A model generated the notes under the pieces. The model was not told the origin of the DNA. It saw only the letters and a list, made by a program, of their open reading frames with translations, and searched no databases. 35,835 nucleotides of DNA from Bacillota bacterium (lineage in GTDB: Bacteria > Bacillota > UBA4882 > UBA10575), in assembly GCA_012521315.1 (NCBI GenBank), contig JAAYMP010000062.1, positions 1 through 35,835 of the forward strand, written 5' to 3'. This document shows positions 4,170-33,936 of the stretch, one piece after another. Within the stretch, counting starts at the first letter, position 1; every line of letters starts with the position of its first letter. Made by a program: the position numbers and the translations under genes.

Positions 4170-4733
4170 ATGAAGGCAACAGGTATAGTTCGGCGCATTG
4201 ATGATCTGGGGCGTGTTGTGATTCCAAAGGAAATTCGCAGAACCCTCCGGATTAGGGAGGGGGACCCGCTGGAGATCTTTGTTGACCGCGAGGGTGAAGT
4301 AATCTTAAAAAAATATTCACCCATCGGTGAACTTGGGGATTTTGCCAAGGAATATGCTGATTCTTTGTATGAATCAACCGGACATATTTCCCTTATTGCC
4401 GACCGGGATCTCATCATTGCGGTCGCCGGTGCCCCGAAAAAAGAGTTTATTGACAAACCGATCTCAAAAGCGGTAGAAAATGCGATTGAAGAGCGGAAGG
4501 TTGTTTTGATGCCTTCGCCCGGCGAGCATAAATACTGCGAAACCTGTCCGATCCTCGAAGAGGAGGGCGAATGCAAATTTACCGCTCAAGTGATCGCGCC
4601 AATTATTGCCGAAGGGGATCCGATTGGGGCCGTTATTTTAGCGTCAAAGGAACCCGGGGTAACCATGGGGGAACTGGAGATAAAAGTGGCGGAAACGGCC
4701 GCGGGTTTCCTCGCCAAACAAATGGAACAGTAG
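4170..4733 (+). CDS. spoVT: stage V sporulation protein T (AbrB-type DNA-binding N-terminus + GAF-like C-terminus)
   Basis: MKATGIVRRIDDLGRVVIPKEIRRTLRIREGDPLEIFVDREGEVILKKYSPIGELGDFAKEYADSL..., full-length SpoVT pattern. AGAAGGAGG ribosome binding site. Confidence 0.96.
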   Translation: MKATGIVRRIDDLGRVVIPKEIRRTLRIREGDPLEIFVDREGEVILKKYSPIGELGDFAKEYADSLYESTGHISLIADRDLIIAVAGAPKKEFIDKPISKAVENAIEERKVVLMPSPGEHKYCETCPILEEEGECKFTAQVIAPIIAEGDPIGAVILASKEPGVTMGELEIKVAETAAGFLAKQMEQ

Positions 4734-8721: not shown

Positions 8722-8761
8722 TACGCTTTTGGCACGCAAATTAACACAAGGAGGGGGTAGC

Positions 8762-10375
8762 ATGTTTACTTGCCATTACGGGCAGGCCGTGATGGAAAGA
8801 ACCTTACTCAACACCAGCAAGGATCTGGAAGCCCATGGCCAGCTTGAGTTGGCGGCCGATTGTCCGGACCTGGAAACGGTTCTTGCCGCCCACGGGTACT
8901 TGCGGGAGATAAAAGGGGAAATCGTCGGGAACAAACTTTATTTGTCCGGAATGGCCGACGTCCATCTGGTTTACCGGGGAAAGGAGAGCTTGGACCAGGT
9001 CCCGGTGTATGGAATGGTGTGGAAAGGGACGGCGGGTGCGGTTGTTAACGGAGAGATTGAGCTGCCTGAGCGGGAGGCGGACTGGGATTGGCAGGTGCGC
9101 TTGTTACAAACGAAACTGCAACCGGAGACGGAACGTACGCTAAAATACCAGTTGGAACTGGAAGTCCGGTTGCGGGCCCATGAACCGGTGGCGGTCGGCT
9201 TTGTCGAACAGATCGAAACCGAAGCCCCGGTCCATACGGAAGAGGAGCATTTGTTGGTAGCGGAGCCGCTGGTCCAAACCTATGTTAGCCGGGAGTTCAG
9301 CAACACGTTCGCGCTCACCTATCCGCGTCCGCCGCTGAGCCGGGTCATCAGTTGCCAGGCCTTCCCGGTGCACACGACAGTCTCGGTGGGCAAAGAAAAA
9401 GTCAACATCGAAGGGAGATTGGAAGTGCATCTGGTCTATGCGACCCTGACCGAAGACGGACAGGAGGGTGGCCTGGAGACCCAAAAATGGACCGAAGAGA
9501 ACGGCGGCGCCCTTCCCTTCCAGATTACGGTGGAAACCCCGGTGCCGCAGGAGCCCTCGGTTGCTTATGAACTTTGGGTGGAGAGCGTGGACTGTCTTTC
9601 CCCGCATCCGGAGAGCTGCCGGGTGCAGATCCAGCTTGGCGTCGACGTGTGCCTGACCAAAACCCGGCAAGCAAAGGCCGTTATTGATGTGTCGGCGGAG
9701 CAAGGGATCATCGATCTCAAGCGGGAAATCGGTTCATGGGTTGAAGTAGTGGAAGAAGCGGAACGCTCCTTTGTGGTGGAAAAACTTCTTACTCTTCCGG
9801 AGCAGCGGCCACCGATCAAAGAGGTCTTGCAGGTTATGGTGACGGAGCCAAAGCTCCAATGGGAGCTGGACCACGACCAGTTGATTGTCGCCGGGGAAGC
9901 CCTGGCCACCCTCCTTTACGAAGCGGAGAGGATGGGTGAGGAAGGGGACGTGATTACAGCGGCCGGTTGGGGGCAGGACGGGACGGAGGCCTTATCTTTC
10001 GGCACCACCGTCGATCTCCCCGGGGTGGAGGCGGAGATGCAAGCCCGGGTCTTTCTCAATCCCCAGCGGCCGGCGGTGGAACTGGTGGATGAAAGAACGA
10101 TCAAACTGATCTGGGAGTTCAAGGCGATGATTACGGTAACGCAAAATCGCGAGTTAGCACTGGTTACCGACAGCGCCTTGGTTTGGCCGGAGGAAGGGCC
10201 GAAACCAAGTATGTTGTTTTACTTGGTGCAGCCGGGTGACACGTTGTGGGGGATTGCCCGCCGCTACAATACGACCATGGCTGCCCTGGCCAAGGCGAAC
10301 CAGTTGACCGGTACCGACCAGGAACTGGTTTTCGGGAAAAAGCTCCTTATTCCAAAGGCCCCGCTTGCCAACTAG
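8762..10375 (+). CDS. DUF3794 (SPOCS) domain protein with C-terminal LysM, SipL-like
   Basis: ATG 8762 with AAGGAGGGGG SD; repeated SPOCS-type segments; C-terminal LysM MLFYLVQPGDTLWGIARRYNTTMAALAKANQLTGTDQELVFGKKLLIP. Confidence 0.88.
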   Translation: MFTCHYGQAVMERTLLNTSKDLEAHGQLELAADCPDLETVLAAHGYLREIKGEIVGNKLYLSGMADVHLVYRGKESLDQVPVYGMVWKGTAGAVVNGEIELPEREADWDWQVRLLQTKLQPETERTLKYQLELEVRLRAHEPVAVGFVEQIETEAPVHTEEEHLLVAEPLVQTYVSREFSNTFALTYPRPPLSRVISCQAFPVHTTVSVGKEKVNIEGRLEVHLVYATLTEDGQEGGLETQKWTEENGGALPFQITVETPVPQEPSVAYELWVESVDCLSPHPESCRVQIQLGVDVCLTKTRQAKAVIDVSAEQGIIDLKREIGSWVEVVEEAERSFVVEKLLTLPEQRPPIKEVLQVMVTEPKLQWELDHDQLIVAGEALATLLYEAERMGEEGDVITAAGWGQDGTEALSFGTTVDLPGVEAEMQARVFLNPQRPAVELVDERTIKLIWEFKAMITVTQNRELALVTDSALVWPEEGPKPSMLFYLVQPGDTLWGIARRYNTTMAALAKANQLTGTDQELVFGKKLLIPKAPLAN

Positions 10376-20073: not shown

Positions 20074-22197
20074 ATGCAACCAAGGATTTTCTTTGGATCA
20101 CAATTATTATCTGATAAAGGAGTTTCCCGGAAGATGAAGAGGTTTTGTTCGAATTGGCGCTCTTTTTTTAGTATTCTTTTGATCTTGGTCGTCCTACCGG
20201 TAGTTTCAGCCACCGAACCGGGGGGTGAAGAACCCGGTTGGGGGTCGGGAAAACCCCAGTGGACCGCCGACCGCGACTGGACTGAGGAGGACGAGGACCG
20301 CGCCTGGATGGAGGTAACCCTTGACTGGACGGCGGCGGCCGCGCCGGAGGAGGATTCCGCGGCGGATGGTCCCCAGTGGATTGTGGAAACCGGGCCGACG
20401 TTATGGTACGGTCTTTCCCCGCGGGCGGGCTTTCTGGTTTCGTTTGATGCGGGTATAACCTGGGAAACCCGGAACGAAGGGCTTCCCGGCCGCCTGTCGA
20501 CCGGGATGGAACAACCGGCGCTGCTTACCGCAATCGGGGTGGACCCGGTGCAGCCCCAGCGGGTAGCCGTGACCACCACGACCCAGATCTATCTCTCCGA
20601 AGATTGCGGTGCCACTTGGCGGCGGATTCCCTTTAACAACGGCAGTGTGATCACGACGGTGGCGCTGGCGCCCGGGCAAGCAGAGCGAATGATGGTTGGC
20701 ACTTCCTTTGCCGGTATTTATGAAACAACAAACGCCGGGCGCAACTGGACCAAGTTGTCCGGGGAGTTAAGTTTCCTGCAGCAGGCGCCTTATGAAGAAG
20801 AGATTGCCGCTTTGGCCTATCATCCCGAGAATCCCGACAAGCTCGTCTTGGCCTGTGGTTTTGGCAACGGCCTCTATCTATACAATAAGGCTTTACAGAT
20901 CTGGGAAGCATTGGAGGCGGGCGCGCGTCGCCGTTTGGTGAAAAACCTGTTATTCCGGCCGGTGCCACTCCCCGCGACGACTGAGGTTTCCACCTCGTTC
21001 GCGTCGCCATCCTGGTGGCTGCAGATTACATACGATGATGGACAAGCGATCTACTCCTGGCCTGCTTTTGAACTGATCGCGTTGGCGACCGAGCCGCGCC
21101 AGCCCTTGGCCGACCGGGCGAAAGCAGAAAGGATGGCCCTGGCCGCCGGTAAGTACGGGATTTACGTGCGTTCCGATTTTGCCGCCGGTCGCCAACTGGA
21201 CGACCACATCCGGTTCATCAAGAAAAACGGCTTAAATGCCATGGTCGTTGACTTTAAAGATGACATGGGCTACATCACCTACGATACCGGAGTCGCGTTT
21301 GCCCACCAAATCGGGGCGGTCCAAAAACGCTTCGCCGCCAAAACGCTGATTAAAAAGGCGAAGGAAAACGGGATCTATTTAATCGGCCGTTTGGTCGTCT
21401 TTAAAGACAGTCGTCTGTACCGGTACGACAACCACCGGTATGCGGTCTGGGACCGTAACAGCGGCGGACCCTGGCGTGATTTGGTGGCAACAGAAACGGA
21501 TGGCGGCGAAACCACCTATGTCCAGAGGGAACACTGGGTTGATCCTTATGCCAGGGAGGTTTGGGAATATAACCTGGCCATCGCCGAAGAGCTGCAGGCC
21601 TTGGGCGTAGATGAGATCCAGTTTGATTATATTCGTTTTCCCACCGACGGGGACCTTAGCCGGTGCTATTACCGGTATCAGCCACCCGATGCCCGGCGGA
21701 TTGACGCTTTGGAAGGATTTTTAGCCCTGGCCCGTTCACGGCTGAGGGTGCCGATCAGCGCCGACCTTTACGGTTACCACTGTTGGTATCTGATGGAAGG
21801 GCTGACCGGGCAGAATATTCGCATCTTCGCCCAGTATGTGGATGTGATCTGTCCAATGTTTTATCCTTCCCATTTTCCCAACTCCTTTTATCCCGTGGAT
21901 TATTTGGAACGGGCCGAGTATATTTACCGGGAAGGTTCCTTCCGGGCGCAGGTTTTGACGGGGGGAGAATGTCTGATCCGTCCATATGTACAAGCCTTTC
22001 GCTTAACCGGGCGGGAATTGAGGATGACCGCACCCGTTTATACGGAATACTTGATTAAACAGGTTACGGGAACCGTCGCCTCGCCTGCTTCCGGTTTTAC
22101 CTTGTGGAATAACAGCAACGACTACTATATGGTCAAGCGGCCGCTCACCGACATAATTTACCAGATTGACAAAGAGAGGGAAATCCAGTTTGATTAG
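20074..22197 (+). CDS. exported protein: N-terminal Asp-box (BNR/YCF48-like) repeats + DUF4015-type putative glycoside hydrolase domain
   Basis: Signal-like segment FFSILLILVVLPVVSA; Asp-box-like SFDAGITW, SEDCGATW, TNAGRNW; then GIYVRSDFAAGRQLDDHIRFIKKNGLNAMVVDFKDDMGYITYDT ... DEIQFDYIRFPTDG. Start may be ATG 20074 (GGAAGGGGAG SD) or 20134. Confidence 0.85.
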   Translation: MQPRIFFGSQLLSDKGVSRKMKRFCSNWRSFFSILLILVVLPVVSATEPGGEEPGWGSGKPQWTADRDWTEEDEDRAWMEVTLDWTAAAAPEEDSAADGPQWIVETGPTLWYGLSPRAGFLVSFDAGITWETRNEGLPGRLSTGMEQPALLTAIGVDPVQPQRVAVTTTTQIYLSEDCGATWRRIPFNNGSVITTVALAPGQAERMMVGTSFAGIYETTNAGRNWTKLSGELSFLQQAPYEEEIAALAYHPENPDKLVLACGFGNGLYLYNKALQIWEALEAGARRRLVKNLLFRPVPLPATTEVSTSFASPSWWLQITYDDGQAIYSWPAFELIALATEPRQPLADRAKAERMALAAGKYGIYVRSDFAAGRQLDDHIRFIKKNGLNAMVVDFKDDMGYITYDTGVAFAHQIGAVQKRFAAKTLIKKAKENGIYLIGRLVVFKDSRLYRYDNHRYAVWDRNSGGPWRDLVATETDGGETTYVQREHWVDPYAREVWEYNLAIAEELQALGVDEIQFDYIRFPTDGDLSRCYYRYQPPDARRIDALEGFLALARSRLRVPISADLYGYHCWYLMEGLTGQNIRIFAQYVDVICPMFYPSHFPNSFYPVDYLERAEYIYREGSFRAQVLTGGECLIRPYVQAFRLTGRELRMTAPVYTEYLIKQVTGTVASPASGFTLWNNSNDYYMVKRPLTDIIYQIDKEREIQFD

Positions 22198-24320: not shown

Positions 24321-24441
24321 CCCGCCGGTTCCCGTTATAATAAACAAATTTTCAACAACGGCAAATAGAGGAAACGGTGACCGCATAGAGAATTCATCTC
24401 TAATGGTTTGATTTTTAGCGGTGGCAGGAGGGAGGGGAAAA

Positions 24442-25446
24442 ATGAAATTTTTACCGTTAAAAGAGATTTCGGAAGATATGTTTCTAGCGCATGCGGTGAT
24501 TGGAAATGACGGGCGCGTCCTGCTGAATAAGGGGACCAGGCTGACCTCGGCCTACCTGCATCGTTTGGAGAAGATGGAATATACCCATTTATACGTTTAT
24601 GAGTCACCAGCGGAGGACTGGAACTGCACCGGTCTGCTCAGCGACCGGATCCGGATTGAAGCCATTCGCGTTTTACGCGAATCCTTGATTCGGGTGGTGG
24701 AGCGCAAGCCCCTGGACGAACCGTTAATCTCTTTCATCATCGAAGGGCTTTTGAAGGATGTGCTGCAACAGGAAGACCGGGTTTTTGATATTATCGATAT
24801 TAAGACCCCCGACAACTATCTTTACAACCATTCCCTCAATGTGGCGGTGATCTCCGTTTTGATGGGAAGGCAGCTCCAGCTTGAACAGGAAGAATTGAAG
24901 GAGATCGCCTTGGGTGCCTTCCTCCATGATCTGGGTAAAGCGCACATCAAGACGGCGACCAAGAAGATTCATGCCCTTTCCGTAAACGACACGGTCCACA
25001 TCAAACAGCATACGACCAGAGGGTTTGAGACTTTGCAGGCCAGCTTTTCTCTTACCGTAGCCAACATCGCCAATCAGCACCACGAGCGGGAAGACGGTTC
25101 CGGCTACCCGCTGGGGTTAAGCGGGGTCGATATCCCCCTTTCCTCAAAGATTGTGGGGGTAGCCAATGCTTTTGAAACCATGGTCGCCGACCTCTGGAAC
25201 GACCAAGCGCTCGAGCGGTTAACGGCGGAGAGCCCGGCCAAGTATAATCCGAAGGTTGTGCGCGCCCTTCGCCAGGTGGTAGCCTTTTACCCGGTGGGGA
25301 GTGTGGTCGAGCTCACCGACGGCGAACAAAGGGTGGTGGTCGCTGTTTCGACCACCAAAATGATGCTGCAAAATCCAAAACAACTTTCGGACCTGCTGGA
25401 GTTACCGGTGGAGGAGTTCTCCCGGATTGCCAAACGGGTGCTTTAG
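24442..25446 (+). CDS. HD-GYP-type domain protein #1 (divergent metal/substrate residues)
   Basis: ATG 24442 after GGAGGG SD; FLHDLGK, HTTRGFETL, NQHHEREDGSGYPLGL; but VANAFETM instead of vaDxfDAlt and no RpYr. Confidence 0.9.
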   Translation: MKFLPLKEISEDMFLAHAVIGNDGRVLLNKGTRLTSAYLHRLEKMEYTHLYVYESPAEDWNCTGLLSDRIRIEAIRVLRESLIRVVERKPLDEPLISFIIEGLLKDVLQQEDRVFDIIDIKTPDNYLYNHSLNVAVISVLMGRQLQLEQEELKEIALGAFLHDLGKAHIKTATKKIHALSVNDTVHIKQHTTRGFETLQASFSLTVANIANQHHEREDGSGYPLGLSGVDIPLSSKIVGVANAFETMVADLWNDQALERLTAESPAKYNPKVVRALRQVVAFYPVGSVVELTDGEQRVVVAVSTTKMMLQNPKQLSDLLELPVEEFSRIAKRVL

Positions 25447-25496
25447 TAGCCCGGCACAACCAAACTTCAACAGGTGTGATCACAGGGGGAGATTTA

Positions 25497-26519
25497 ATGG
25501 GGGAACGATCATACTCCGTTTGTATTCCAAAAGATTACCGGTCCTTCCTGGGGATTAAGGATACCCAAATTGCCATCAAAAAACTGAAAGATTACTTTGA
25601 AAATGCCTTGGCGAAGGAGTTGAGTTTGGTCCGGGTTTCGGCGCCCTTATTCGTGACCCCGGAATCGGGGTTGAACGATAATCTGACCGGTACAGAGCGA
25701 CCGGTCAGCTTTGATGTGAAAGCTTTAAACGGGCGAGGGTGCGAGATCGTCCAATCCTTAGCCAAATGGAAACGGATGGCCCTGCAAAAATATGGTTTTG
25801 GCCCCGGTGAGGGACTATACACCGATATGAATGCGATCCGCCGGGATGAGCATCTGGATAATTTGCATTCGATCTACGTTGACCAGTGGGACTGGGAGAA
25901 AGTGATCCGGCGGGAGGAAAGGACGGTTGAGACTTTACAAGAGACCGTCCGGGCCATTTACCGGGTGTTGCAATCGACGGAGGCCTATATCCGACAGTAC
26001 TACCCGGCCCTTCCTGCGGAATTGCCGCCGGAGATTAAATTCATTACCGCCCAGGAGTTGGAAGACCGCTATCCGGACGCCAGCCCGAAAGAGCGAGAGG
26101 ACAAGATCACCCGGGAATGGGGGGCGGTATTTATCATGAAGATCGGGGGAACCCTGAAGTCAGGTCAGCGTCACGATGGACGCGCCCCCGATTACGACGA
26201 CTGGAGTCTCAACGGTGATATCATTCTCTGGTATAATCTGCTGGGGAAGGCGCTGGAGATCTCGTCGATGGGGATCCGGGTTGACGCCGAAAGTCTGCGG
26301 CAACAGGTGGCGGAAGCGGGCTGTGAGGAACGGCTGACCCTGGCTTACCACCGGGATTTGCTGGCGGGTAAGCTCCCCTACACGATTGGGGGCGGGATTG
26401 GCCAGTCGCGGTTATGCATGTATTTTCTGAAGAAGGCCCATATCGGGGAAGTCCAATCTTCGGTCTGGCCCGAGCAGATGCTGAAGACCTGCCGGGATGG
26501 GGAGATCTTCCTCTTATAA
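25497..26519 (+). CDS. asnA: aspartate--ammonia ligase
   Basis: DTQIAIKKLKDYFENALAKELSLVRVSAPLFV..., VDQWDWEKVI, YTIGGGIGQSRLCMYFLKKAHIGEVQ. Start at ATG 25497 after GGGGGAG. Confidence 0.96.
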   Translation: MGERSYSVCIPKDYRSFLGIKDTQIAIKKLKDYFENALAKELSLVRVSAPLFVTPESGLNDNLTGTERPVSFDVKALNGRGCEIVQSLAKWKRMALQKYGFGPGEGLYTDMNAIRRDEHLDNLHSIYVDQWDWEKVIRREERTVETLQETVRAIYRVLQSTEAYIRQYYPALPAELPPEIKFITAQELEDRYPDASPKEREDKITREWGAVFIMKIGGTLKSGQRHDGRAPDYDDWSLNGDIILWYNLLGKALEISSMGIRVDAESLRQQVAEAGCEERLTLAYHRDLLAGKLPYTIGGGIGQSRLCMYFLKKAHIGEVQSSVWPEQMLKTCRDGEIFLL

Positions 26520-26603: not shown

Positions 26604-28001
26604 ATGAACATGGGAGAAGTATTGGTGAAACAGATTTTCCGGGATCCCGGCTCTTTTTTGGGCCGCACAATCCAGGTTAGCGGTTGGGTCCGGACGATCC
26701 GGGCCTCGAAAAGCTTTGGTTTTATCGAGCTCAACGACGGCTCGTTCTTCTACAATATACAGGTGGTCTTTGACGACAATTTACCTAATTTCCAGGAGAT
26801 TGCAAAACTACCCATCGCCACCGCCCTGCGGATCGAGGGTGAGTTGGTGGAGAGTCCGGGGGCGAAACAACCGTGGGAGATCAAAGCGGCCAAGATCACC
26901 ATCGAAGGCCGGTCCGAGTCGGACTATCCCTTGCAGAAGAAACGCCATACGCTGGAGTACTTGCGGACCATCGCCCATTTGCGGCCACGCGCGAATACTT
27001 TTTCCGCGGTCTTTCGTCTGCGTTCCTTGGCCGCCTATGCAATCCACCGGTTTTTCCAGGAGCGGAATTTCGTCTATGTCCACACCCCGATTATCACCGG
27101 GAGTGACTGCGAAGGGGCCGGTCAGATGTTCCGCGTGACGACCTTTGATCTTGACGACCTTCCCCGGGATGTAGAGGGCCGTGTGGATTTTGGCCAGGAT
27201 TTTTTCGGCCGGGAGACCCATTTAACCGTCAGCGGGCAACTGGAAGCAGAGACCTTCTGCATGGCCTTCCGCAATGTCTACACCTTTGGACCGACCTTCC
27301 GGGCGGAAAACTCCAATACGCCGCGGCACGCCGCCGAGTTTTGGATGGTGGAACCGGAGATCGCCTTTGCCGACCTGAACGACAATATGGCTTTGGCGGA
27401 AGCGATGCTGAAGTACCTGATCAACTATTGCCTGGAACAGGCCCCGGAGGAGATGCAGTTCTTTAACCGCTTTATCGATCCCGACCTCTTGGCCCGGCTG
27501 GACAATGTGGTCAACTCCGATTTTGGGGTGGTTACCTACACGGACGCCATTGAGCTTCTTAAAAAAGCAGACCAAGACTTTAAATATCCGGTGAAGTGGG
27601 GAGTTGACCTCCAGACCGAACACGAACGCTACTTGACCGAAAAGGTCTTTAAAAAGCCGGTGTTTGTCATCGACTACCCCAAAGAGATCAAAGCCTTTTA
27701 CATGCGTCTGAACGATGACAACCGGACGGTGGCCGCCATGGATCTTTTGGTGCCGGGGGTTGGTGAGATCATCGGCGGTAGCCAAAGGGAGGAGCGGCTG
27801 CCGGTTCTGGAAGCCCGGATGCGGGAGTGCGGGTTGGATTTTGCTAATTACTGGTGGTACCTTGAATTGCGCAAATATGGCGGGACCAAGCACGCCGGCT
27901 TCGGTCTTGGCTTCGAGCGCGCGATTATGTACCTGACGGGGATGGCCAACATCCGGGATGTCCTTCCCTTCCCGCGGACGGTCAAGACGGCCGAATTTTG
28001 A
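26604..28001 (+). CDS. asnS: asparaginyl-tRNA synthetase
   Basis: OB-fold [25 protein letters not shown]; motif 2 [21 protein letters not shown]; motif 3 [28 protein letters not shown]. Confidence 0.96.
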
Positions 28002-28118
28002 CAAACCGTTTTTTCGGGGATAATTTTTGTTGCATTTGGCGATACTATAAATAACGAGGAGTTGTTACCAATGGGTTCGGTGGGGAAACCGGATTAAACC
28101 CGGCAAAGGAGGGCGCCA

Positions 28119-28991
28119 ATGAATAGCCAGGTCGAGCTGGTGGTTGACAGCAAAACCTTGATGGGAGGAAATCCTTACTGGGAAGAAGAGACCCAAACCT
28201 TCTACTGGGTGGATCTGATGGGGACGAAAGTCTATACTTATCAGCCGACCACCGGGGAACGGCACTGGCTGGAAGTAAACCAGCACGTCGGGGCGTATAT
28301 TCCCCGGCGGGGCGGCGGGGCGGTTATTGCGCTCCAAAGCGGCCTTTATCTTTTGGACCCCCAGACGAAAGAAGTGGCGCCTGTCTATCTTCCGGATCCT
28401 TCCGAAAACCGTTTTATTAGTGGAAAATGTGACCTGACCGGACGGCTTTGGGCCGGGACCTCCGATCTTTTGAGCCAGACGCCCTGGGGGACCCTTTACT
28501 GTATGGAAAAGGACCATACGGTCCGGCCGGTGTTGGTCAATGCCACCCTGCCGTGGGGGTTGGGTTGGAGTCCGGACTACCGGTTGATGTATTACGTGGA
28601 CACGCCGACGCGGGAGATTGTTGCTTTTGATTTTAACCCGGAGAGCGGCGCGTTAAACAATAGGCGGACGGTGGTTAAGTTTCCGGAAGGAGCGGGCATG
28701 CCCGCCGGGATGACCGTCGATGCCGAGGGGAAGCTTTGGGTGGCCCACTGGCAAGGTGGCCGGGTGACCCGTTGGGACCCGGAGAGCGGCGCGCTGCTCG
28801 ACACGGTTCAGCTTCCGGTTTCCCTGGTCACGGCTTGTCAGTTTGGCGGGAGTGACTTTGCGGAACTGTATATCACCACCGCCCGTTACCCGTTGAACCC
28901 CAAAGAAATAGCCCGGCAACCCCACACCGGGGGGATCTTCCGCTGCTGGCCGGGGGTGAACGGGCTTCCTACTCCGAAATATGCTTCTTAA
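28119..28991 (+). CDS. SMP-30/gluconolactonase-like beta-propeller protein lacking canonical metal ligands
   Basis: FYWVDLMGTKVYTYQPTTGE, GLGWSPDYRLMYYVDT, GMTVDAEGKLWVAHWQGGRVTRWDPESG, QFGGSDFAELYITTARY match the family scaffold. Confidence 0.88.
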   Translation: MNSQVELVVDSKTLMGGNPYWEEETQTFYWVDLMGTKVYTYQPTTGERHWLEVNQHVGAYIPRRGGGAVIALQSGLYLLDPQTKEVAPVYLPDPSENRFISGKCDLTGRLWAGTSDLLSQTPWGTLYCMEKDHTVRPVLVNATLPWGLGWSPDYRLMYYVDTPTREIVAFDFNPESGALNNRRTVVKFPEGAGMPAGMTVDAEGKLWVAHWQGGRVTRWDPESGALLDTVQLPVSLVTACQFGGSDFAELYITTARYPLNPKEIARQPHTGGIFRCWPGVNGLPTPKYAS

Positions 28992-29925
28992 AGGTTGGGG
29001 GCGGCGGGGTGGCCGGGGCCGGGTAGCGGTTCATCGCCAAGCAACGGGGCTTTTCGGCCGCTTCGTAACCGGCTTTTAGATTCGCCCTGATCTGGTCGGG
29101 ATCAAAAGAAAGGGCATGGCCTGGTAAAGGCTTGGCGGGCGCGATAATCTGGATCGGAATCGGTTTTTTTCCCGGATAGCGCCACCAAGCCTTATTAATT
29201 GCCTGGGCGAGTTGGAGATCATTGACCGCAATTTCACTGAGGAGGATCTCCACCGTACGCAGGATGGCCTGGAGGGCATTGCCTGGCCGGCCGGGGGGCA
29301 TGGTGGCTTCCAAGTTGGGGCTGAGGGGGAAAGTGGTAATCGCAATAATCTCATCGGGGTCTTCTTTGATTGCGGTCGCCAAAGGGGTTAGATCGCGCAA
29401 TCCCCCGTCGTACCAATGTTGGCCGGCGATGGGAACCGCCGGAAAGAAAAAGGGCATACTGGCGCTGGCCAAAACATAGGTGAGATAATCCTGGTGGAAG
29501 GCCGGCTGGCGGCTGTCGGCGCACAGGAGTTTTCCGGTTTCGAAGGAGACGACCGTTACTTTGACGACGGTCCGCGGATGGAAGAGGCGCGCCGGGTCAA
29601 TTTTACGGCGGATGAGATCCCATAGCCCGCTGGGGCTGTATAAAGCGCCATGCCGCAAGATCCGCCAGAGATTCCCCAACAACCCGCTCCGGTAAATGCA
29701 CCGGTTACCCTTAATCCCTAACCAGGTCGCCGTAAGTTCTTTGACCAGTTCCTGTAGTTCCTTGAAGTTTCTGGCCTGACCGAGGAAGGCGGCGTTGAGC
29801 GCGCCCACGCTCGTTCCGGTGATCAGCTGGAAATCCAGCTTTTTTTTGTTGACCAGATTGGCAATGGCGCCGGCCTCGAAAGCGCCTTTGCTCCCCCCTC
29901 CGGATAACACCAACGCTCGTTTCAT
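28969..29925 (-). CDS. patatin-like phospholipase
   Basis: MKRALVLSGGGSKGAFEAGAI (oxyanion loop), GTSVGALNAA (GxSxG), YDGGLRDLTPL (catalytic Asp). Start ATG 29925 after GGGGGAG on the minus strand. Confidence 0.93.
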   Translation of the reverse strand: MKRALVLSGGGSKGAFEAGAIANLVNKKKLDFQLITGTSVGALNAAFLGQARNFKELQELVKELTATWLGIKGNRCIYRSGLLGNLWRILRHGALYSPSGLWDLIRRKIDPARLFHPRTVVKVTVVSFETGKLLCADSRQPAFHQDYLTYVLASASMPFFFPAVPIAGQHWYDGGLRDLTPLATAIKEDPDEIIAITTFPLSPNLEATMPPGRPGNALQAILRTVEILLSEIAVNDLQLAQAINKAWWRYPGKKPIPIQIIAPAKPLPGHALSFDPDQIRANLKAGYEAAEKPRCLAMNRYPAPATPPPPTFKKHISE

Positions 29926-30032
29926 CTTTAACTCCCCCACTTGGATCGGTAATCCCCGAAAATGATCCGGCTTCGCTATTGGGATCGATCTATTTTATGA
30001 GTGGGCAGGGGAGTTGTTGCCAGGTTGTATCC

Positions 30033-31325
30033 TTACCCGGAGATGGTTACCCCATGCGCATGGATCCATGGCAAAAGGGCCGAACCAAAGTCGATGCGTT
30101 CCCGCGAAACAGCGGCAATCGACTGAAAGAGGGAGATTAGATTTCCGGCGATCATCGTTTCGCTTAGCGGATATTGAATCTTCCCGTCTTCAATGTAGAA
30201 ACTGTTCTTGGCCACACCGGAAAAGTCCCCGTTGGGGCTGGGGGCGCCTCCGGAAAAACGGTTCAGGAGGAGACCCTTTTTTACTTTTTTCATGATTACG
30301 GTGAGGGGGTGGTCGCCCGGGGTGACGACAAAGGCGCCTCCATCGTTGGCCCCCCGGGGCAGGCCTGTTCTTCGCGCGCCATACTGGCTTAAAAGAAAGC
30401 TTTTCAAAACGCCGTTCGCAAAGATGGTTGCGTTTTGGGCTTCATACCCGTCGCTGGTGATAAAATAGCCGCTGCTGATCTCCGGGGCCACCGGACAGCA
30501 GGCCAAGGTTAAGCGGGGGCTGACCACCAACTGGTTTAAGCTATGCCGAAAGGGGCTGGTCCCCGCGATCAAAGGCCCGTCGCTGATGGTGATCTCGAGT
30601 AAAAAGTGGAGAAAATCTTCGAGGCAATCCGGGGTGATCAACACCTCGCCGGTAAACTTGCCTGGGGACTTCCGCGGCGTTTGCCCCCGGTTGGCCTGGT
30701 CTAGAAGGATGCGGAGGGAACCGCCGTTCAGCAACTCCTCGTCCAGGTCCAAGGTGAAAAAGCCCGTGTGGTTAAAGGAAGAGGAACCGGGTCCTTCTTG
30801 GGCCGAGAAGGTGACGGCAAAACGGTACCCGCCTTGGTTCACGGTAAAATCGACACCGTTGGAATTCTGGAAGCACGTGGTCTGGCGCGTAAAATCCAGG
30901 TGGGCATTGAGCAGTACAATCCGGGGAAATTCCGCCGCCACCTCACTGGTGAAAGTTTTGAACCTTTGGTACATCAAGTCCAAATCGGGAGCGGTCCCGC
31001 CCTTGTTAAAGGTTTTGGCCGGTTGATACTCCGCGATATCATGGGCGGGGTCCGGCGCGGCAGCGGCGGCGATCGCCAACACTTCCTGCACGGCCGCGTC
31101 CACAACGCTCCGGTCGCTTTTGTTCAGGAGAAGGCTGCCCCGCCGCTGGTTTTGCAAAGCCGTCAAACGCAGATGGTGATCGACGGTGGTCCGGATCAGC
31201 TTCAATGCCCCGTTTTCCAAATTCATCTCCGTCTTTTCCGTCCGGGTCAGGATGGCTTCGGCTTTCTCGGCCCCGGACTGGGTTAAGGCGTGTAGCGCGT
31301 AGGTGTTTAATTCCTTTGTTGACAT
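30033..31325 (-). CDS. pmbA: TldE/PmbA-family protein
   Basis: MSTKELNTYALHALTQSGAEKAEAILTRTEKTEMNLENGALKLI..., C-terminal GDFSGVAKNSFYIEDGKIQYPLSETMIAGNL. Starts 2 nt after the tldD stop with GGAGG SD. Confidence 0.92.
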   Translation of the reverse strand: MSTKELNTYALHALTQSGAEKAEAILTRTEKTEMNLENGALKLIRTTVDHHLRLTALQNQRRGSLLLNKSDRSVVDAAVQEVLAIAAAAAPDPAHDIAEYQPAKTFNKGGTAPDLDLMYQRFKTFTSEVAAEFPRIVLLNAHLDFTRQTTCFQNSNGVDFTVNQGGYRFAVTFSAQEGPGSSSFNHTGFFTLDLDEELLNGGSLRILLDQANRGQTPRKSPGKFTGEVLITPDCLEDFLHFLLEITISDGPLIAGTSPFRHSLNQLVVSPRLTLACCPVAPEISSGYFITSDGYEAQNATIFANGVLKSFLLSQYGARRTGLPRGANDGGAFVVTPGDHPLTVIMKKVKKGLLLNRFSGGAPSPNGDFSGVAKNSFYIEDGKIQYPLSETMIAGNLISLFQSIAAVSRERIDFGSALLPWIHAHGVTISG

Positions 31326-31327
31326 CT

Positions 31328-32704
31328 TTAACGACCTCCGATCATAACTTGGCATTTGAGGGCGGGTCCGCCTAAGCCGACCGGGATCAGTTGTTTTTTT
31401 CCACACATTCCCCCGCTTAACCATTTAAACTCCCGTGAAACTTCGTTTACCGTCTGCAAAACCTGAAAGGCCAAGCCGGAGATGGTCGTGTCTTTGATCG
31501 CCCGGCCGAGCCTGCCGTTTTTTACTTCGTAACCCAATGTTACCCCAAACATAAACTCGCTGGTCGCATCGGCCTGACCGTTGCTGGGCCGCATCAGATA
31601 GTAACCGTCGTCGAGGGATGCGATCATCTGATCCAGGCTGGCCTTGCCCGGCAGGATGGCGGTATTCCGCATCCGGATTAAGGGTTCATCCGAATAACGA
31701 AAAGCACGGGCGTTCCCGGTCGGCGGGACTTGGAAGTGGCGGGCCGTTTCCTTGTTATGCAGGAAGCCCTTGAGGATGCCATGGTCAATCAAGAGCGCGT
31801 CGGTGGCGGAGGTCCCTTCGTCGTCGATGTAGATGGGAACCGGGCAAGCTTCACCCAGGGCGGTATGGGCAAAATCAACCAGGGAGACCAAGGGGCTGGC
31901 CACGGGCTGATCCAGTTTGGTGCCGGCCACCGATCCGCCCAGCACCAGATCGGCTTCACAGGTATGGCCGATGGCTTCATGGGCCAAGATTCCGGTTAAT
32001 TCGGGGGCGAGGATACAAGTTTTCAGCCCGGCGGTGGGGTAGACCCCTTCCCGTTTGCGCATCAAATGCTCGTATAACTGATCGATCTGCGGATAGAGCG
32101 TGTCCGGAGTAGGAAAATGGGTTTCAAACCGGCCGCGCCCCCCGAAGACCTCCTGCAGGCTGACGGGCGCCCCGTCGTGCTCCACGGTTAAGCCAATCTG
32201 AATTAGCGACCGGGTATGCAAAGAAAAGGCGGAAGCGCCGTCGGAAGTGAGGAGGGCCTTTTTCAGCTCGGTCCGGTTGAGGGTCACCGTCCGGCTGGCC
32301 AGATTGGGGTATTTTCCGGCAATGTACCGGTCAATTTCTTGCAGAAAAGCCACCAACTGTTCCGGACTGGGCGGCGGCGTGGTCAGGGGCGGATCGTGAT
32401 GGACGACCACGGCGCCACGGGGTAAAGGCGGGGCGCTTTGCCTTTCTTTGGCGGCGAGAAAAGCGGCGTTGTCGGTGGCGGCGGTTACCACAAACTTCAC
32501 GCCGTCGGCGTTCGCCTCGGGGGAGGAGGCAAAACCCCAGACCCCGTCCTTATAAACCCGGGCGGAGACCCCGCTGGTGGACAACCGGGTGTTTGTCGTG
32601 TTGTTACCTTTAAAAAAACTAATGACCAAACTGTTATTCTCTTGACAACGTAATTCGGTGTAATCCGTGAACAAGCTTTTAAAGGAAGACAAATCTATAT
32701 TCAT
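31328..32704 (-). CDS. tldD: TldD-family metalloprotease
   Basis: HEAIGHTCEADLVLGGS (HExxxH), ISGLAFQVLQTVNEVSREF, CGKKQLIPVGLGGPALKCQVMIGG. Confidence 0.94.
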   Translation of the reverse strand: MNIDLSSFKSLFTDYTELRCQENNSLVISFFKGNNTTNTRLSTSGVSARVYKDGVWGFASSPEANADGVKFVVTAATDNAAFLAAKERQSAPPLPRGAVVVHHDPPLTTPPPSPEQLVAFLQEIDRYIAGKYPNLASRTVTLNRTELKKALLTSDGASAFSLHTRSLIQIGLTVEHDGAPVSLQEVFGGRGRFETHFPTPDTLYPQIDQLYEHLMRKREGVYPTAGLKTCILAPELTGILAHEAIGHTCEADLVLGGSVAGTKLDQPVASPLVSLVDFAHTALGEACPVPIYIDDEGTSATDALLIDHGILKGFLHNKETARHFQVPPTGNARAFRYSDEPLIRMRNTAILPGKASLDQMIASLDDGYYLMRPSNGQADATSEFMFGVTLGYEVKNGRLGRAIKDTTISGLAFQVLQTVNEVSREFKWLSGGMCGKKQLIPVGLGGPALKCQVMIGGR

Positions 32705-32907: not shown

Positions 32908-33936
32908 TTGCGTTATTTACCGTTGGATGAGATCGAAGAAGGAATGATTCTCGCCCGGAGTGTCATCACGGAAGACGGGGGAACGCTGCTGCCCAAAGGC
33001 TTAAAATTGACCAAAGACCACCTACAAGAACTAAAAGCCCTGAACTTTACCCATCTCTTTGTGGGGGTAGGGCCGGAAGATTTTGAAGCGGAGGGGATCA
33101 GCGAGCAAACCTACAGTCAGGCGCTGAGTTATGTACGGGAAGTCTTTCTGAACGCGGCGAAAAAACAGAACCTTGATTATAAAGGGGTTCTGGATGTGGT
33201 CGATTTCATGGTGGATGAAGTGTTGAATGAAGATGTTTTGTTTAATATTTTTGAGATCAGAAACCATGATAATTATACTTACCTGCATTCGGTGAAGGTT
33301 GGCATCATCGCCATCATCATGGGGAAAAACCTGGGTTTGGAGAAGGATCAAATCAAAGAGCTGGCGGTCGGTGCTTTGCTTCATGATATCGGCAAAATGT
33401 TTATTGAGAATTCGATTCTCGAAAAGAGGGGGCGCCTTACTTATCAAGAGTACGAAAAGATGCGTTTCCACCCGCGATACGGTTTTGAAATCCTATGCGG
33501 AGCACCGGGGTTGAGTCGTCAATCGACGCACGTCGCTTATCAGCACCACGAACGGGAGGACGGGTCCGGTTATCCCCGCGGCCTGATCAGCGAAGAAATA
33601 CATCTTTACGCCAAAATTGTGATGGCGGCCGACTCTTACGATGCAATGACTTCGGGGCGTAGTTACCGGCGAACGCTGTGGAGCCATGAAGCTCTGGCGC
33701 AATTGGCGGCGGAAGCGCCGGAGAAGTACGACCCCAAGATGATCAATCTTTTGGCCAAGTCTGTTGCTTTGTACCCGGTAGGCAGCGTCGTTTTACTAAA
33801 CAATTTGGAGGTAGGATTGGTCACCGATATAACCCGTGGCAGCGTTAAGATCGAATTCTTGACTGGAGAGGACAAAGGGAAAAAGATTGCTTTAAAGGCG
33901 AACGATTTATTAAAGATCGAACGGCGGCTTTCTTAA
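32908..33936 (+). CDS. HD-GYP domain protein #2 (canonical residues)
   Basis: TTG 32908 after CGGAGGA; HSVKVGIIAI, LLHDIGKMFIENSILEKRGRLTYQEYEKMRFHPRYGFEIL, YQHHEREDGSGYPRGL, AADSYDAMTSGRSYRRT. Confidence 0.93.
   Translation: MRYLPLDEIEEGMILARSVITEDGGTLLPKGLKLTKDHLQELKALNFTHLFVGVGPEDFEAEGISEQTYSQALSYVREVFLNAAKKQNLDYKGVLDVVDFMVDEVLNEDVLFNIFEIRNHDNYTYLHSVKVGIIAIIMGKNLGLEKDQIKELAVGALLHDIGKMFIENSILEKRGRLTYQEYEKMRFHPRYGFEILCGAPGLSRQSTHVAYQHHEREDGSGYPRGLISEEIHLYAKIVMAADSYDAMTSGRSYRRTLWSHEALAQLAAEAPEKYDPKMINLLAKSVALYPVGSVVLLNNLEVGLVTDITRGSVKIEFLTGEDKGKKIALKANDLLKIERRLS

Follow-up and report, generated by a model that had tools for sequence, protein, structure and literature searches.

An SMP30/gluconolactonase-family propeller without metal ligands, fixed within one family of spore-forming Bacillota

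The stretch of DNA analysed here (the window, 35,835 nucleotides from a Bacillota bacterium) carries an open reading frame with an ATG start and no internal stop, which encodes a 290-residue protein of the SGL (SMP30/gluconolactonase) family. It lies directly behind asnA and an asnS-like gene, is preceded by a conserved promoter-like block and a ribosome-binding site, and runs at its 3' end into a convergent patatin-like phospholipase gene. The features of the locus are as follows:

25476 to 26519, forward strand: asnA, aspartate-ammonia ligase, the conserved upstream neighbour (PF03590, E 1e-108; synteny in four genera)
26604 to 28001, forward strand: asnS-like class II (D/K/N) aminoacyl-tRNA synthetase, the conserved immediate neighbour (PF00152, E 2.1e-65; synteny)
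28018 to 28048, forward strand: promoter-like block of 31 nt, G[GA]ATAWTT..T.TTRCA....G..GAWACTAT, conserved upstream of the SGL gene
28107 to 28112, forward strand: Shine-Dalgarno sequence AGGAGG, conserved by the orthologues as GGAGGGGCGCC
28119 to 28991, forward strand: SGL-family six-bladed propeller gene without metal ligands (open reading frame P0001, 290 aa)
28969 to 29940, reverse strand: patatin-like phospholipase, convergent, 3' end overlapping the SGL gene by 23 nt (PF01734, E 7.5e-27)

This arrangement is shared by representatives of four genera: the order rseP, HD-domain gene, asnA, asnS, SGL gene is the same in each, and the patatin-like gene stands convergent behind them. A different gene follows asnS in two genera of the same family (g3 and g4) and in G016, a genome of a neighbouring family, and a full SGL gene was found in none of their genomes; the g3 and g4 genomes also lack an adjacent asnA. 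A link to asparagine metabolism was considered and set aside: the synteny is real, but G016 has asnA-asnS without the SGL gene, and this, together with the promoter-like block that the SGL gene has to itself, leaves the link weak. Elsewhere in the window, paralogous HD-GYP-type HD-domain proteins (PF13487) are encoded on both sides of the asnA-asnS-SGL region (24421-25446 and 32908-33936), and in the product of 20074-22197 a weak BNR/Sortilin-like repeat region (about residues 117-287) is followed by a fused putative glycosyl hydrolase domain (DUF4015). A neighbouring PmbA/TldD-type pair on the reverse strand (30033-32704) is listed as two open reading frames overlapping by 97 nt, so that translation of the downstream one probably begins at a later start codon than the one listed.

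The 31-nt pattern occurs in 11 of 11 orthologous upstream sequences across the four genera, 27-100 nt from the start codon (L010, the orthologue with an in-frame stop described below, is included and L011, at an assembly gap, is left out), whereas shuffled upstreams match at a mean of 0.006 of 11. Since the block also has no second genomic copy when up to 3 mismatches are allowed, the SGL gene very likely has its own promoter. The promoter consensus of the forespore factors sigma-F and sigma-G is of the type GNATA-N18-RANAHTR. The block fits this consensus, but the fit did not hold up as an assignment, as the genome-wide pattern count equals that of the reversed control (4 vs 4); the SASP promoters share just a -10-like element with the block. 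The window contains sporulation genes for a SpoVT-type regulator (4170-4733) and a SipL/LysM protein (8729-10375), and the carriers possess sigG and SASP genes in other parts of their genomes, which identifies the organism as a spore-former. Between the promoter-like block and the SGL gene there is also a tiny open reading frame (28071-28097, ATG GGT TCG GTG GGG AAA CCG GAT TAA) with GAGGAG ahead of it, whose conservation among the orthologues is not clear.

Membership of the 290-residue protein in the SGL family by descent is clear. It matches PF08450 over residues 19-256 (E 4.6e-70; 236.4 bits against a curated cut-off of 26.3), covering profile positions 5-246 of 246, and a phmmer search of solved structures returned human and mouse SMP30/regucalcin (E 4e-54), the luciferin-regenerating enzyme LRE (1e-38) and Caulobacter xylonolactonase (3e-38). 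An earlier note, made from the sequence alone, had described an intact reading frame encoding an SMP-30/gluconolactonase homologue, and both descriptions hold. That note had also read four family motifs as GGNPYW, RFISGK, WGLGWSPD and PAGMTVD, and had concluded that the counterparts of SMP30 residues E18, N103, N154 and D204 were lost. All four motifs are present in the protein, and a phmmer alignment with checked numbering places G17, I100, W146 and A196 at these positions; to the list we add the second-shell residue D104, which is replaced by S101. The codons concerned, all on the forward strand, are:

28167 to 28169: G17, at the position of metal ligand Glu18 (G in 10/10 clade sequences, E in 22/22 outgroups)
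28410 to 28412: R98, the retained substrate residue Arg101 (R in 10/10 clade sequences and 22/22 outgroups)
28416 to 28421: I100 and S101, which take the places of Asn103 (substrate residue and fourth ligand) and second-shell Asp104 (clade sequences have I/V followed by S/C, and 22/22 outgroups have N followed by D)
28554 to 28556: W146, at the position of metal ligand Asn154 (N in 22/22 outgroups)
28704 to 28706: A196, at the position of metal ligand and proposed base Asp204 (A in 10/10 clade sequences, D in 22/22 outgroups)

The Glu/Asn/Asp metal site of an SMP30-type lactonase is therefore replaced in full, by G17, W146 and A196, and Asn103 and Asp104 are gone with it. Arg101, the other sugar-binding residue, is kept; it contacts sugar hydroxyls in mouse SMP30 (PMC3551927). 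The activity of human SMP30 depends critically on Asn103 and on the bound metal, as reported from mutagenesis (PMC3551927). From the letters of the gene and its relatives there is thus a strong case that the protein should neither hold a catalytic divalent cation nor act as a metal-dependent lactonase.

The replacements are not peculiar to one genome. A search of related genomes gave homologues in 11 more members of one Bacillota family, 7 of them from the window's own genus and the rest from 3 more genera, and the other relatives searched gave none or weak matches. Named carriers are metagenome assemblies, one of them titled Hydrogenispora sp., and the genomes are draft assemblies. The clade proteins are 62-94% identical to the window protein, and across the 10 full-length sequences aligned (window included; L011/L020, interrupted by assembly gaps, and L010 left out) the five positions read G, I (V in one), S (C in one), W and A. 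The codon of W146 is TGG in all 10, three changes away from an asparagine codon. L011/L020 is readable from about residue 45 on and carries the same replacements at the four positions covered; L010 has the clade residues at all five. The substitutions are thus kept at every readable site, which answers a check that the earlier note had called for. L010 (G013:C113, within 53634-54503) has an in-frame TAA in its last third, and the copy in G008, of the same genus, is intact; the TAA is either a true nonsense change, in which case the gene may be dispensable in G013, or an assembly error. In sum the 12 assemblies agree, and 11 of the 12 have no stop in their readable part. When the window gene is compared with its orthologues, dN/dS is 0.07-0.12 in every pair with unsaturated dS. 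A maximum-likelihood tree recovers the clade as monophyletic (100/99), with a stem of 0.67 changes per column, and the long rows of the solved enzymes fall near it, so that its exact sister group is left undefined.

Each carrier genome (83-99% complete) has one full-length SGL gene, the ligand-less one, and a search for a second full-length SGL in them found none. We therefore rejected the idea that the protein is the inactive partner or regulator of a live SGL paralogue, as there is no competent paralogue for it to serve. A viral or plasmid origin was also rejected for want of any sign of a mobile source: viral contigs held one distant SGL with all ligands intact, and the plasmid SGLs were below 60% identity.

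The relatives outside the clade provide a sharp contrast. All 22 Bacillota outgroup SGLs (34-49% identity, those of Paenibacillales being best) carry E, N, D, N and D at the five columns, as do the viral-contig SGL and the three solved enzymes SMP30, LRE and XylC. The outgroups were chosen by similarity to the window protein, and the count therefore says that near relatives keep the site without gauging how rare its loss is across SGLs. The EGP, ND, NG and DG motifs are likewise recognisable in most of the other long SGL matches of the phylum that were inspected (L029, L030 and L131), the exception being L031/L134, which is divergent and aligned in part. Because the same substitutions recur in 10 of 10 clade sequences at 62-94% identity while the site is intact in 22 of 22 outgroups, chance is excluded. 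The loss also falls selectively on the active site. The 22 outgroups have 50 invariant columns, and at 8 of these every clade sequence departs from the outgroup residue: at all five functional residues, against 3 of the 45 other columns (Fisher p 2.6e-5, counting columns, which are not independent events). When SMP30, LRE and XylC are added, 28 columns are invariant. The clade retains 21 of these in full and varies at 2, and the 5 that it has wholly lost are exactly the equivalents of E18, N103, D104, N154 and D204. These five positions were taken from the SMP30 literature and the alignment, independently of the conservation counts. The remark in the earlier note that the surrounding scaffold is well kept is borne out by these figures and by the predicted fold.

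An AlphaFold2 model, built with the window family and one distant homologue as input (pLDDT 86, pTM 0.87), overlays on mouse SMP30 (4gn7; human 3g4e) with a TM-score of 0.94 and an rmsd of 2.0 Å at 34-36% identity, and predicts the six-bladed SMP30-type beta-propeller. It replaces a mediocre model made from six near-identical sequences (pLDDT 77, TM 0.81). With the fold and the profile match in place and the metal site missing, the protein belongs to the SGL family by descent and very probably does not work as a metal-dependent enzyme of that family. By homology, the inner strands are 17-22, 57-63, 98-104, 145-150, 194-201 and 237-243. They contain no acidic residue except E22 and D201 at strand ends; D201 is invariant in the canonical enzymes and the position of E22 is Asp, Glu or His there, so neither is a new ligand. 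The earlier note had proposed that carboxylates filling the central site in another way would speak against its reading; at the level of strands and alignment, none of the ligand positions on the six inner strands has gained an Asp, Glu or His. When the cavity and entrance residues of mouse SMP30 (PMC3551927) are mapped by homology onto the clade, the wall residue Y219 corresponds to W211 (W in 20/22 outgroups), and the entrance residues P35 and D265 correspond to M34 and Y257, which are variable outside the clade and newly fixed within it. The pocket would then be hydrophobic and aromatic, formed by W146, W211, Y257 and M34, with the retained R98 as its one arginine. Such a pocket would favour ligand binding over a plain scaffold.

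Comparison with known systems helps to place the protein. It resembles SMP30/regucalcin/gluconolactonase in full-length homology, in fold, in the Arg101 equivalent and in the scaffold glycines, prolines and tryptophans, but lacks E18, N154, D204, Asn103 and Asp104; its lid loop is also shorter, a feature that it shares with the bacterial outgroups. Caulobacter xylonolactonase XylC (7plb), which binds one Fe2+ and is an Fe2+ enzyme (PMC8529709), has the same bacterial SGL fold (TM 0.91-0.92, 1.7-1.9 Å), but retains E, N, D, N and D at the five columns where the window protein has none of them. The nearest ligand-bearing relatives found are SGLs of Paenibacillales (e.g. L075, 49% identity), which share the length, C104 and most scaffold residues and differ in having the full ligand set GEGP/NDGK/SNGL/PDGM. 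Within the nucleophilic-attack six-bladed propeller (N6P) superfamily, the strictosidine synthases are the members that work without a metal (PMC4215206). They likewise lack metal ligands within the N6P fold, a likeness by loss that is not evidence of common descent, but strictosidine synthase comes from plants, belongs to another subgroup and condenses tryptamine with secologanin. A Str_synth match is absent among the five Pfam hits of the window protein with E up to 1, and the loss in our clade is separate from that in strictosidine synthase. A literature search that left most subscription journals outside its reach found no ligand-less SMP-30 pseudoenzymes.

We propose, with a probability of roughly 0.6, that the protein is a metal-free pseudo-lactonase repurposed as a ligand-binding propeller. 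Under this hypothesis, the ancestor of this SGL-fold six-bladed beta-propeller was a metal-dependent enzyme of the lactonase type, and on the stem of one family of spore-forming Bacillota, related to Hydrogenispora, it would have had the substrate Asn and the second-shell Asp replaced along with all three metal ligands, at a cost of at least 8 nucleotide changes if the ancestor had standard Glu, Asn and Asp codons. The new set of residues would then have become fixed in the family, while purifying selection continued to act on the scaffold and on parts of the wall and rim of the pocket. In the proposed pocket floor, Trp146 would occupy the former place of the metal with Ile/Val100 beside it; Arg98 and Trp211 are retained, and Met34 and Tyr257 are newly fixed at the entrance. 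Most likely a small ligand binds in this hydrophobic and aromatic pocket with Arg98 as its polar anchor. The protein may serve as a sensor, a carrier or a regulatory partner, with a promoter of its own driving its expression behind asnA-asnS. The earlier note had suggested a deliberate non-lactonase propeller with a binding, structural or new chemical role. Its non-lactonase part stands at the sequence level, given the lineage-wide fixation, the omega of 0.07-0.12, the selective loss of the active-site columns and the SMP30 fold; among the three roles, we favour binding. Three points weigh against our reading: the invariant residues might be kept for folding or for contact with another protein and not for a pocket, the pocket picture depends on homology to SMP30 positions, and the stop codon in G013 may mark a gene that can be spared.

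A doubtful but arguable alternative is that the clade gained a metal-independent enzyme, with Arg98 and other pocket residues catalysing new chemistry in the old pocket. Strictosidine synthase offers a precedent within the superfamily (PMC4215206), the entrance has been remodelled through M34 and Y257 while R98 and W211 are invariant, and purifying selection is strong; yet the channel positions hold Gly, Ile/Val, Ser/Cys, Trp and Ala with no newly fixed Asp, Glu, His or Lys, no Str_synth profile is matched and no biosynthetic genes lie nearby. Rather less probable is a structural or protein-protein scaffold in which Trp146 and Ile100 plug the channel and the blades offer a surface for interactions, for instance with the asnA and asnS products. 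The replacement of ligands by bulky hydrophobics agrees with this, as do the conserved linkage to asnA-asnS and the newly fixed residues W50, W123, K205, K262 and R266, which are not among the listed pocket positions. A plugged scaffold, however, has no need of conserved entrance positions or of R98, and the gene pair without an SGL gene in G016 and the separate promoter-like block argue against a partnership with asnA-asnS.

It is improbable that the metal site has simply moved, with N18, S101, main-chain oxygens or another channel position binding a cation and hydrolase activity surviving. N18 is newly invariant in the clade and adjoins the lost Glu, but beyond E22 and D201 the inner strands offer no acidic residue to such a site. 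That the gene is a decaying relic or an assembly artefact is hardly credible: the in-frame TAA in G013 and the metagenomic source of the named carriers would suit it, but not the agreement of 12 assemblies, the low dN/dS or the conserved promoter-like block and ribosome-binding site.

One consequence of our reading concerns annotation, since automatic assignment through PF08450 names this protein a gluconolactonase, which it very probably is not. More broadly, the family would provide a lineage-fixed natural case in which an SMP30-type metallolactonase became metal-free, had its pocket rebuilt and acquired a conserved promoter of its own, and in which it possibly, though we think it unlikely, turned into a metal-independent enzyme with new chemistry. 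If true, this would be an event of the strictosidine-synthase kind whose ligand-bearing relatives are still 45-49% identical. Because the loss is recent by this measure, and clean in that the active-site columns alone are affected, the path could be rebuilt and tested by ordinary mutagenesis, the protein being a harmless one. It would thereby bear on how metal-independent members arose in this propeller superfamily, an evolutionary path that has been called a mystery (PMC4215206).
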